The notes beneath the pieces are model-generated. The model was not told the DNA's origin. It made no database searches and saw nothing but the letters and a program-made list of their open reading frames with translations. Made by a program: the position numbers and the translations under genes. From Thalassococcus sp. S3 (GTDB lineage Bacteria; Pseudomonadota; Alphaproteobacteria; Rhodobacterales; Rhodobacteraceae), in assembly GCF_004216475.1 (NCBI RefSeq), contig NZ_CP022303.1:2356001-2420000 (forward strand): a stretch of DNA of 64,000 nt, in the 5' to 3' direction. Positions 17,905-63,372 of this stretch are shown one piece after another (position 1 is the first letter of the stretch; every line of letters begins with the position of its first letter).

Positions 17905-18387
17905 GCCGCAGCAAAGGAAGCTGCTGTCAGCTCATTCCAGACCTCTCGAAACAAGGATTGACTGTGCGCATGGACGCTTTTGCTCTGGAAACGATCCGGT
18001 CGCACATCAATGTCCATGAAGGGGCAGAAACCTCGATCCGTAGATCAAGAGACTGACTGACGCGTACGCAGCGAAAAGCGCAGCAACAGACGCTGCCAGG
18101 CAGGGCCTCAAGGTATGAGCCTTGTTTACAAGGCGCATTCATAGACCGCGTTGGCATGTCATATTATCTATAATCAGTATTATGTAATATAAAGATGCAG
18201 AAGGCAGGATGAACTCCGTGCGGCGTCTTGACGGCCGCGACAACCGTTGATTTGCGAAATTACGTTCCGACATGCGGTATTGGCAGCATCAGAATTCCAG
18301 ACTAACATTTTTCGAAATGACAGAGTCGCAGACCAATGCGACCCAATAAAGCGACTGCGCCAGCGGCGCATCTGGGAGGAGAACACC
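17905..18387. other. Long intergenic region with an AT-rich stretch
   Basis: No convincing gene is seen. At about 18158-18200 there is a strongly AT-rich stretch (TATTATCTATAATCAGTATT and following) that could hold a promoter for the acyl-CoA operon, though no clearly spaced -35/-10 pair could be fixed. A small GCAGC/GCTGC stem lies just after the GNAT stop without a T-run. Confidence 0.4.
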
Positions 18388-59398: not shown

Positions 59399-59519
59399 CG
59401 CCCTTCATTTACCCTAAAACGTGGCCGATCAGGTGCAAAAACGCTGTTTTACGTATGCGCAACGCTGGACAGCGCCCATATCGCCCGTCTAAGGGTGGGG
59501 TAGAAAACGAGTGGTGTGA

Positions 59520-59969
59520 ATGTCGAAAATCCTGGTGCTGAACGGGCCGAACCTCAATCTGCTGGGGACCCGGCAGCCTGACGTCTATGGCTCTGAGACA
59601 CTGAAAGACATCGAGGAGATGTGCACGGCGCATGCCGCGCCTCTGGGGCTGAGCGTGGACTTCGTGCAGTCCAATCACGAGGGCGTCCTGATCGACGCCA
59701 TTCACGCGGCGCGCGGGACCTATCGCGGTCTGATTCTGAATGCGGGCGCGCTGACCCATACCTCGATCGCGTTGATGGATGCCATCGCTTCGGTTGAGTT
59801 GCCGCTGATCGAGGTGCATCTTTCGAACATCCACGCACGGGAAGCCTTTCGGCACACGTCCTTTATCGCGCCCGTGGCGCTAGGACAGATTTGCGGATTC
59901 GGATCACAAGGATATAGTCTGGCACTCGACGCGATGAGCGCGTATTTGGCGGAGGCACACAAAGAATGA
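59520..59969 (+). CDS. aroQ: Type II 3-dehydroquinate dehydratase
   Basis: The protein of 149 residues catalyses the third step of the shikimate pathway. It shows LNGPNLNLLGTRQPDVYGSE with the catalytic Tyr23, the QSNHEG segment, LNAGALTHTSIAL and EVHLSNIHAREAFRHTS with the catalytic His and binding residues. Length is normal for the dodecameric enzyme. Its stop codon overlaps the start of the LuxR-type gene (ATGA), an odd link between housekeeping and regulation. Confidence 0.95.
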   Translation: MSKILVLNGPNLNLLGTRQPDVYGSETLKDIEEMCTAHAAPLGLSVDFVQSNHEGVLIDAIHAARGTYRGLILNAGALTHTSIALMDAIASVELPLIEVHLSNIHAREAFRHTSFIAPVALGQICGFGSQGYSLALDAMSAYLAEAHKE

Positions 59970-60721
59970 AGATGCGTGAGTATCTACAATTTTTGTCCAA
60001 TACCAAATCCATGGAAGAGCTGTGGTCCGCGCACACCGAAAGGATGGCGAGCTACGGCTTTGATCGCCTGCTTTACGGCTTTACCCGTTACAGGACGAGC
60101 ACGTCGCTGGGCGATCCGGAAGATTTCATAATCCTGACCAATCACAAGCCGGAATACACCCAGACCTTCATTCATGAGGGCCTCTATTTCCACGCGCCGA
60201 TGACCCGCTGGGCGCTGGAGAACGAGGGCGCGGGAAGCTGGCGCTATGTCGGAGAGATGTTCGACGGCAAGGTGCTGACGAAGGAAGAACAGCGGGTGAT
60301 CGAATTCAACCTGGGCATGCAGGTGACCGCGGGCTACACGATCAGCTTCAAATCGGTCTCGATGCGCTCGAAGGGTGCGATCGCGCTGACGGCCCATCCG
60401 GGGATGAGCCAGGACGAGGTGGACGAGATCTGGGCCGAACACGGGCGCGACATTCACCTGATGAACAACATCGCGCATCTAAAGATCCTCACCCTGCCCT
60501 ATTCCGCGCCCAACCGGAACCTGACCAAGCGCCAACGCGAGGCGCTGGAATGGGTGGGCGACGGCAAGACAACGCAGGATATCGCCCTGTTGATGGGTCT
60601 GACCTCGGCCACCGTGGAAAAGCATCTGCGCCTGGCACGCGAAGCGCTGTCGGTCGAAACGACGGCCCAGGCGGTGCTGAAGGCGGCGATGCACAACCAG
60701 ATGTTCGTGCTGGAAGCCTGA
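59966..60721 (+). CDS. Solo LuxR-type regulator with altered AHL pocket
   Basis: The protein of 251 residues has an N-terminal autoinducer-binding fold (about 15-165) and a C-terminal GerE-type helix-turn-helix (about 185-245; LTKRQREALEWVGDGKTTQD). Of the residues that hold acyl-homoserine lactones in TraR/LuxR, the Trp57 position is Tyr64, Tyr61 is Phe68 and Asp70 is Ala77, while Pro71 and Trp85 are kept as Pro78 and Trp92. No luxI-like gene is in the window. It probably senses another ligand or none. The ATG overlaps the aroQ stop codon. Confidence 0.88.
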   Translation: MKMREYLQFLSNTKSMEELWSAHTERMASYGFDRLLYGFTRYRTSTSLGDPEDFIILTNHKPEYTQTFIHEGLYFHAPMTRWALENEGAGSWRYVGEMFDGKVLTKEEQRVIEFNLGMQVTAGYTISFKSVSMRSKGAIALTAHPGMSQDEVDEIWAEHGRDIHLMNNIAHLKILTLPYSAPNRNLTKRQREALEWVGDGKTTQDIALLMGLTSATVEKHLRLAREALSVETTAQAVLKAAMHNQMFVLEA

Positions 60722-60760: not shown

Positions 60761-61126
60761 CTACCCCGTCGGTATTCCCTGGTGAAACCGAAGCAACCAG
60801 CTTGAGGCCGTCCTGATCCAGATCGAGCTGCGATTGGCCCGTTCGGACCCCGTGTCGAAATGTATCTCGCTCACATAAGTGACCAGAGCGGCATCCCTGG
60901 AAAGAAAGCCCGCCCGGAAATACGGCAGGGGAAACGTCGCCCGGAATGCATCGGGCGGGCTGTGCACGGCAAGAATGTCCTGGCGCGTATAGATCCGGCC
61001 CGAACGACCGTATTCCAGAAAGTCGGGCGCAAGAAGCCGGTCCATCCCTTCCGGATCGAAGCGGATTTCAGGCCGCCACAACAGACTTTCGAGGCCTTGC
61101 AATTCATCGACTGTGTTCTGATCCAT
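60761..61126 (-). CDS. DUF4440/NTF2-like protein
   Basis: The protein of 121 residues has the cone-like NTF2 fold pattern: an N-terminal helix (ELQGLESLLWRPEI), then DRLLAPDFLEYGRSGRIYTR and strands ending in SSIWIRTASSWLLRFHQGIP. The family includes small binding proteins and enzymes without a single function. It is convergent with the LuxR gene. The ribosome site before the ATG is weak. Confidence 0.75.
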   Translation of the reverse strand: MDQNTVDELQGLESLLWRPEIRFDPEGMDRLLAPDFLEYGRSGRIYTRQDILAVHSPPDAFRATFPLPYFRAGFLSRDAALVTYVSEIHFDTGSERANRSSIWIRTASSWLLRFHQGIPTG

Positions 61127-61611: not shown

Positions 61612-62487
61612 TTAGCCCTGAGCGGCCTTGGCGACTTCGGCGGCGAAGTCTTCCTTTTCGACCTCGATGCCTTCGCCCACTTCGAGACGGACAAAGCCGG
61701 TGATCTCGGCGCCGGCTTCTTCTGCGGCCTTGGCAACGGTCAGGTCGGGGTTGACCACGAATTGCTGGTTCAGGAGCGTGACCTCGGCCATGAATTTCTT
61801 CATCCGGCCCACGATCATCTTCTCGATCACCTGCTCGGGCTTGCCGCTTTCACGGGCGATGTCCATCTGAACCTGCTTTTCCTTTTCGACCACGGAAGGG
61901 TCAAGATCGGCTTCGCTGAGCGAGGCGGGGTTCACGGCGGCGATGTGCATTGCGACCTGCTTGCCGAAGGCTTCATCGCCCCCGGTCATGGCCACGAGAA
62001 CACCGATCTTGCCCATGCCGGTCGTTGCGGCATTGTGCACATAGGAGACCACGCCATCGCCCTCCAGCGATGCCATGCGGCGCACCGACATGTTCTCACC
62101 GATCGTGGCGATCTTGTCGGTGAGCGTGTCGGCCACGGTCTTGCCGCCCATATCGGCCTCTTTCAGCGCTTCGACGTCGGAGACGGTCAAAGCGGTCTTT
62201 GCGATACCGGATACCATCTCTTGAAACTCGGCGTTCTTGGCCACGAAGTCGGTTTCGGAATTGACCTCGACCGCGACACCCTTGCCGCCGTCGACGACCA
62301 CGGCGACCAGACCTTCGGCGGCGGTGCGACCGGATTTCTTGGCGGCCTTGGCCAGACCCTTGGTGCGCAGCCAGTCGACCGCGGCTTCCATGTCGCCGCC
62401 CGTTTCGGTCAGTGCTTTTTTCGCGTCCATCATGCCTGCGCCGGTGCTGTCGCGCAGTTCTTTCACCAATGCTGCTGTGATTGCCAT
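61612..62487 (-). CDS. tsf: Translation elongation factor Ts
   Basis: The protein of 291 residues recharges EF-Tu with GTP in the cytoplasm. The N-terminal UBA-like part reads [20 protein letters not shown] and is followed by the core signature [12 protein letters not shown]. The C-terminal part carries [20 protein letters not shown]. The ATG at 62487 follows GAGGAGAG; codons upstream are not conserved in the family. It is downstream of rpsB by 90 bases and ends at a strong terminator. Confidence 0.97.
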
Positions 62488-62577
62488 GACGTGGCTCTCC
62501 TCAAATTCTGGATGGTTGGGACGGGTCATACCCCGTCCCGTATGTCATTTGCGTGACAGGCCCGGAGAGGACCCTGA

Positions 62578-63372
62578 TCAAGCGTTCGCCGGGGCCTCCT
62601 CGGCCTCTGGCGTGGCCTCGTCGGCCAGACCCTCTTCGACCGGAGCTTCGTCCATCGCGCCCAGATCGACGCCAGCGGCGCCAAGCTGCGCGGACATGCC
62701 ATCAAGCGCCGCGCGGGCGGCCAGATCGCAGTAAAGCGCGATCGCACGGGCCGCGTCGTCATTGCCGGGGATGATGAAATCCACCCCATCGGGCGAACAG
62801 TTGGTGTCCACCACGGCCACGACCGGGATGCCCAGCTTGTTGGCCTCTGCAATCGCCAGCGCCTCTTTCTTGACGTCGATGACGAAGAGAAGGTCCGGTG
62901 TGCCGCCCATCTCGCGGATCCCGCCCAGCGACGCCTGCAGTTTGCCCTGGTCACGCTCCATGCCCAGACGCTCTTTCTTGGTCAGGCCCTCGGCGCCGGC
63001 TTCCATCGCCTCGTCGATCTGTTTCAGACGGTTGATCGACTGGGACACGGTTTTCCAGTTGGTCAGCGTGCCACCCAGCCAGCGGTGGTTCATGTAATAC
63101 TGCGCGCATTTCTCGGCCGCTTCGGCGATGGGCTGGGATGCCTGGCGCTTGGTGCCGACAAAGAGGACCCGACCGCCTTTGGCAACGGTTTCGCGGATCA
63201 CCGTCAGCGCCTGGTCCAGCATCGGGACGGTCTGCGTCAGATCCATGATGTGGATGCCGTTGCGCGCGCCGTAGATGAAGGGCGACATGCGCGGGTTCCA
63301 GCGCTGTGTCTGGTGGCCGAAGTGAACGCCCGCTTCGAGCAGCTGACGCATTGTGAACTCGGGAAGAGCCAT
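62578..63372 (-). CDS. rpsB: 30S ribosomal protein S2
   Basis: The protein of 264 residues is a primary small-subunit ribosomal protein. The opening is [20 protein letters not shown], followed by [30 protein letters not shown] and [12 protein letters not shown]. An acidic Ala/Glu-rich tail of about 35 residues is longer than in E. coli. The ATG at 63372 follows GGAAAGGA. In other bacteria S2 represses its own operon through the leader, and here about 120 bases separate the promoter from the start, so the same may hold. Confidence 0.97.

Follow-up and report, generated by a model that had tools for sequence, protein, structure and literature searches.

What does a LuxR-type regulator respond to when no LuxI partner stands beside it and the residue that defines the recognition of acyl-homoserine lactones (AHLs) has been replaced? 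This question is raised by a luxR-type gene of the alphaproteobacterium Thalassococcus sp. S3, located in a 64,000-nucleotide stretch of contig NZ_CP022303.1 (positions 2,356,001 to 2,420,000) that was analyzed as a whole and is referred to here as the window. We tentatively propose, with a probability of roughly 0.48, that its product is a chromosomal Rhodobacterales LuxR solo that is independent of AHLs and has a non-AHL ligand. The gene, its domains, including the helix-turn-helix (HTH), and the three codons of interest are the following.

59966..60721, + strand: luxR-type solo regulator gene, 251 amino acids
within 59966..60721, + strand: autoinducer-binding domain (residues 16-173) and LuxR/GerE HTH (residues 185-239)
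60155..60157, + strand: codon of Tyr64, at the position of TraR Trp57 by alignment
60167..60169, + strand: codon of Phe68, at the position of TraR Tyr61 by alignment
60194..60196, + strand: codon of Ala77, at the position of TraR Asp70 by alignment, including that with QscR

The domain architecture is that of a LuxR protein. Autoind_bind (PF03472) and GerE (PF00196) were matched in that order with 93.1 and 34.6 bits (Pfam cut-offs, 23 and 23.5). The predicted fold is that of a LuxR ligand domain, with ligand-bound LasR and QscR as the top structural matches; the window protein thus combines a ligand domain of the LasR/QscR type with a LuxR HTH. Its identity to TraR, SdiA and the LuxR of its own host is 18-20%. 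The best NCBIfam matches were other LuxR-HTH regulators, namely the PA1136/HchA-linked model (TIGR03541), EpsA and VisN/VisR, all with scores far under the cut-offs; the highest, 54.7 of 215.6 bits for TIGR03541, covers residues 172-241 only. Conservation is stronger in the HTH (mean entropy, 0.83 bits) than in the ligand domain (1.83 bits), and E218, K219, H220, R222, A224 and R225 are invariant in the chosen 54-row alignment.

Asp70 of TraR/LuxR normally bonds the amide of the AHL. The preliminary description had placed the replacements by spacing, and our alignments with TraR of pEHA105, the canonical LuxR of the same genome and Escherichia coli SdiA, together with a HMMER alignment for QscR, agree with it: Trp57, Tyr61 and Asp70 of TraR, whose numbering was checked, correspond to Tyr64, Phe68 and Ala77, and Pro71, Trp85 and Gly113 are retained as Pro78, Trp92 and Gly123. 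TraR Tyr53 aligns to His60. The position of TraR Thr129 is occupied by Ile139 in the MAFFT alignment, or by Ala140 if it is read by the strand pattern. The window protein therefore differs at the Trp57, Tyr61 and Asp70 positions from the AHL receptors TraR, LasR, QscR, SdiA and CviR, and it also lacks the adjoining synthase.

The same replacements extend across the family. Among 149 genomes of the same family, the window's own included, relatives were found at E ≤0.001 in 130 and strong ones (E 1.2e-55 or better) in 103. The 109 family loci derived from them include five second copies (L104, L108, L110, L111 and L112) and three weak relatives (L113-L115), with two strong matches (G021 and G095) and a partial one (G069) lying outside the set. 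A further set of named records consists of the best 80 of at least 585 confirmed places; since 11 of these share an identical luxR gene with one of the 109, counts pooled from both sets are not independent. The Asp70 position holds Ala in 80 of the 109 relatives, Thr in 11, Gly in 8, Ser in 6, and Val, Ile, Asp or Arg in one each, the sole Asp belonging to a relative of 34% identity (L114); the replacement is thus a small residue in nearly all cases. The Trp57 position is Tyr in 99 and the Tyr61 position is Phe in 84 or Tyr in 20, while Trp is found at the Trp85 position in 108 and Gly at the Gly113 position in all 109. In the named loci, Tyr64 and Phe68 are present in 80 of 80, and the Asp70 position is Ala in 74, Gly in 5, Ser in 1 and never Asp. 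As judged from these sequences, an AHL ligand thus appears unlikely, as had been suggested earlier, because the whole family has lost the amide-bonding Asp but retained the fold and the Trp85 and Gly113 positions.

Of the named loci, all from Alphaproteobacteria, 78 belong to Rhodobacterales (by NCBI ranks, 50 of the 80 are Roseobacteraceae, 27 Paracoccaceae and 3 without a family). Ruegeria and Phaeobacter are among the genera with an ortholog. Of 240 genomes of the class, 38 matched at E 1e-10, but only three with more than 300 bits; these three, among them the window's own genome, are all from the window's family, and the next match reached 85 bits. Phage records held no relative at E 1e-5. 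Plasmid records held relatives in 42 cases, all below 60% identity (best, 39.7%), and the family is therefore not only chromosomal. Five genomes carry the second, diverged solo copy noted above, at 37-45% identity. These copies have no adjoining tsf that we could find, and their pocket residues are less uniform. Our comparison outlines a lineage-wide group of LuxR solos that lack the defining residue of AHL recognition, and the search for a ligand has a clear target in such a widely retained regulator.

The search for a synthase bears out the earlier statement that no luxI is nearby. The LuxI family PF00765 had three matches in the genome and none within the 64-kb window. The best, with 84.6 bits, lies next to a canonical LuxR about 1.8 Mb from the window gene, and its top NCBIfam model is an AHL synthase (72.9 of 250 bits). 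Another, about 388 kb off with 27.1 bits, is closest to OlsB-type acyltransferases, under their cut-off, and the third falls below the Pfam cut-off. The genome encodes three PF03472 proteins. The pair is located as follows.

L116:1198-2762, at C1:4200452-4201593, same genome: LuxI-type and canonical LuxR genes, the LuxR keeping Trp, Tyr, Asp, Pro and Trp

Given that a LuxR with the canonical Trp, Tyr and Asp is adjacent to the best LuxI-type match, the AHL role is filled by another protein; these two probably form a separate AHL pair in the host, and the window protein is unpaired. LuxR solos for non-AHL signals are known from the OryR/PsoR group, PluR and PauR, which are unpaired and altered at the Trp57 and Tyr61 positions, with Asp70 kept. 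The window protein is likewise unpaired and altered in its pocket, but differs from them in that Asp70 is replaced as well.

The other feature of the locus is its junction with the gene upstream.

59520..59969, + strand: aroQ, type II 3-dehydroquinate dehydratase (DHquinase_II, 206.2 bits), with stop codon TGA
59966..59969, + strand: ATGA, in which the luxR start and the aroQ stop overlap
59951..59955, + strand: GGAGG, Shine-Dalgarno-like, inside aroQ and 10 nt 5' of the luxR ATG

The overlap is as first described, ATGA being common to both genes, and it had been taken to tie the level of the regulator to aroQ. Common transcription of the two genes is likely. Translational coupling is possible as well; however, the GGAGG at a distance of 10 nt from the start codon would also permit independent initiation, and strict coupling may not be needed. 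Of 102 linked loci, 59 have a Shine-Dalgarno-like 4-mer ahead of luxR, compared with an average of 25.6 in shuffled sequences. The arrangement is conserved only in part: aroQ is directly 5' of luxR in 45 of the 109 family loci and 57 of the 80 named ones. When the two sets are pooled, 85 of the 102 linked loci have a negative gap, which is -4 in 68. No link was seen in 64 family loci, of which L047, L079 and L106 extend less than 360 bp upstream, too short to show aroQ, nor in 23 named loci. At least 23 changes of state are needed on a rough tree of the 109 proteins, in which 55 of 106 inner branches have less than 80% support. It seems unlikely that the same overlap arose again and again, and we infer that the link is old and was lost many times. 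The aroQ gene itself was found in 141 of the 149 genomes.

Where the link is absent but the upstream gene is on the same strand, the gap is 49-356 bp in 49 of 60 loci, which leaves room for a promoter. The upstream gene varies among the unlinked loci, its commonest domain being the FAD oxidoreductase DAO (13 of 68 scanned, of 80 listed). On the side of aroQ, the 8-mer CTGGACAG lies at window positions 59465-59472 and is present 5' of aroQ in 37 of the 102 linked loci; it is perhaps part of a promoter.

These observations can be combined into a working scheme for a LuxR solo with a non-AHL ligand. Like other LuxR proteins, the regulator would bind DNA as a dimer, and its activity would be set by a ligand that does not come from a partner LuxI. 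This ligand may sit in the retained pocket, with the conserved Tyr64, His60, Asn115 and Ser127. In aroQ-linked loci the regulator would probably be made from the aroQ transcript, and in the other loci luxR would have its own promoter. Several results weigh against this proposal. The 18 pocket positions, mapped by alignment, are slightly more conserved than 78 hydrophobic controls of the same domain, but 7.3% of random control sets equal the pocket in conservation; support for a ligand is thus weak, and we dropped pocket conservation as proof of one. Tyr64 might still meet a lactone carbonyl. In addition, the operator search upstream of luxR gave no target site, its one strong motif being the dif site treated below.

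The competing explanations differ in what they make of the pocket. The regulator may be free of any ligand, with the autoinducer-binding fold as a mere scaffold and the amount of protein setting the output. Such a mode has reportedly been suggested for VqsR of Pseudomonas aeruginosa and other LuxR homologues without AHL binding. The weakness of the conservation test leaves room for this explanation, which we rank second and hold to be possible, if rather doubtful; VqsR itself fits the window protein more poorly than LasR does and was not among the sequence matches at E 0.01. Another possibility would be an atypical AHL receptor, for the product of the host's LuxI-type gene or for signals of neighbors, with Tyr64 or His60 replacing the lost residues. 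The host does carry a LuxI-type gene together with a canonical LuxR, and the best structural matches are ligand-bound AHL receptors, LasR and QscR; however, with Asp at the Asp70 position in one of 109 and none of 80 relatives, and with mostly Ala, Gly or Ser at the TraR Thr129 position (under the strand-pattern reading, A140; I139 by MAFFT), this explanation is unlikely.

The preliminary description went further and proposed that the protein may sense a shikimate-derived or other metabolite. A shikimate sensor tied to aroQ would suit the recurrence of the gene order in 45 of the 109 and 57 of the 80 loci, where the codons mostly overlap. However, the link is often absent, and residues at the pocket are alike with and without it (Ala77 in 37 of 45 linked vs 43 of 64 unlinked loci; Tyr64 in 43 of 45 vs 56 of 64), so that a shikimate ligand gains no support; the many changes of state on the tree likewise speak against it. 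Moreover, three genomes without a strong luxR (L213, L223 and L228) have aroQ between dif and tsf, where it can thus be a neighbor even without luxR. We consider this proposal very improbable. Among these explanations, we prefer a non-AHL ligand for the solo.

Downstream of the regulator, the window holds three further genes.

60761..61126, - strand: DUF4440 open reading frame between luxR and tsf (PF14534, 49 bits)
61612..62529, - strand: tsf (elongation factor Ts), convergent, 3' of luxR (PF00889, 239.5 bits)
62578..63372, - strand: rpsB (ribosomal protein S2), adjoining tsf on the same strand (PF00318, 312.9 bits)

The tsf gene is a commoner neighbor of luxR than aroQ: it lies downstream in 75 of the 80 named and 90 of the 109 family loci, and is convergent in all 165. 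In the aroQ-linked loci, luxR has its place between aroQ and tsf. The 19 family loci in which it is missing comprise 3 contig ends, 5 second copies, L114 and 10 loci searched over about 1.5 kb. The named loci in which it was not found are L125 and L128 (nearly 5 kb covered), L149 and L151 (2.1-2.5 kb) and L190, which ends after 386 bp. rpsB was seen in 74 of the 80 named loci; for the 109 family loci, with coverage of only about 1.5 kb on the downstream side, the count is 31. By tblastn, the DUF4440 frame was found in one of the 109 family loci, which is the window itself, and in none of the 80 named ones.

On the other side, 41.8 kb upstream of luxR, is a site that the operator search had brought up.

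18163..18190, + strand: XerCD dif-like site of 28 bp, the single match in the genome

The site is an 11-6-11 element with the inner arms CATAA/TTATG, as in E. coli dif (NC_000913), the window copy carrying TATAA in place of CATAA. The palindrome CATAAT-N4-ATTATG was considered as a LuxR operator and ruled out: it occurs about once per genome, matches the inner arms of E. coli dif and, in the window's own genome, sits 41.8 kb from luxR. Its core, ATAAT-N4-ATTAT, was found upstream of luxR in 29 of 86 regions without the aroQ link and upstream of aroQ-luxR in 19 of 102 regions with it, and shuffles (ten per set) gave no dyad of this length in more than two regions. A loose dif pattern was found in 131 of the 149 genomes and the stricter TAATNNNTATTATGKWA in 99, with one copy in 97 and two in G076 and G123. 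Of these 99 genomes, 72 belong to the 103 with strong luxR; the two elements are on one contig in 69 and on different contigs in G038, G095 and G021. Measured to the nearest copy, all 69 of these genomes have dif upstream of luxR, 66 of them in the same orientation, at a distance of less than 1 kb in 41 and no more than 42 kb in all; these counts cover genomes matching TAATNNNTATTATGKWA, and the distances are limited by contig ends. The map position, with dif upstream and tsf convergent downstream, should aid the finding of orthologs in new genomes.

With dnaA 2.18 Mb from the dif-like site on a contig of 4.80 Mb, the site lies roughly opposite dnaA. At 18163-18190 the window's GC skew does not change sign in a lasting way, which does not support a terminus, so that the terminus reading rests on the site and this rough position. 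The place near dif might be functional, with luxR retained on one side of dif, almost always in a single orientation to it, as one of the last-replicated genes, whose dosage or local nucleoid state reports the completion of replication; the protein would then be a regulator linked to the cell cycle or terminus and not a quorum sensor. We regard this as improbable. For comparison, we took the surroundings of dif in 20 genomes without strong luxR; one of these, G118, carries L114, a far relative, on a different contig. In 11 of the 20, tsf is no more than 10 kb from dif (L211, L213, L215, L216, L218, L222, L223, L225, L227, L228 and L229), and it was not found in 9, which ruled out nearness to dif as special to luxR. 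Since tsf shares the linkage, that of luxR may be passive. With aroQ between dif and tsf in 3 of the 20 genomes, a simple reading would be an old order dif-aroQ-tsf into which luxR was inserted later. The linkage nevertheless makes the role of a place near the terminus testable for a regulator.

tsf and rpsB (window positions 61612-63372) lie in the dif region, whereas translation genes such as these are more often near the origin. The 41.8 kb between luxR and dif in the window is the largest distance among the 69 genomes, about 41 kb of it (18191-59519) separating dif from aroQ. Distances of 28-34 kb between luxR and dif are seen in G005, G092, G113, G128 and G137, and the long distances in the window and these five relatives suggest an older rearrangement.
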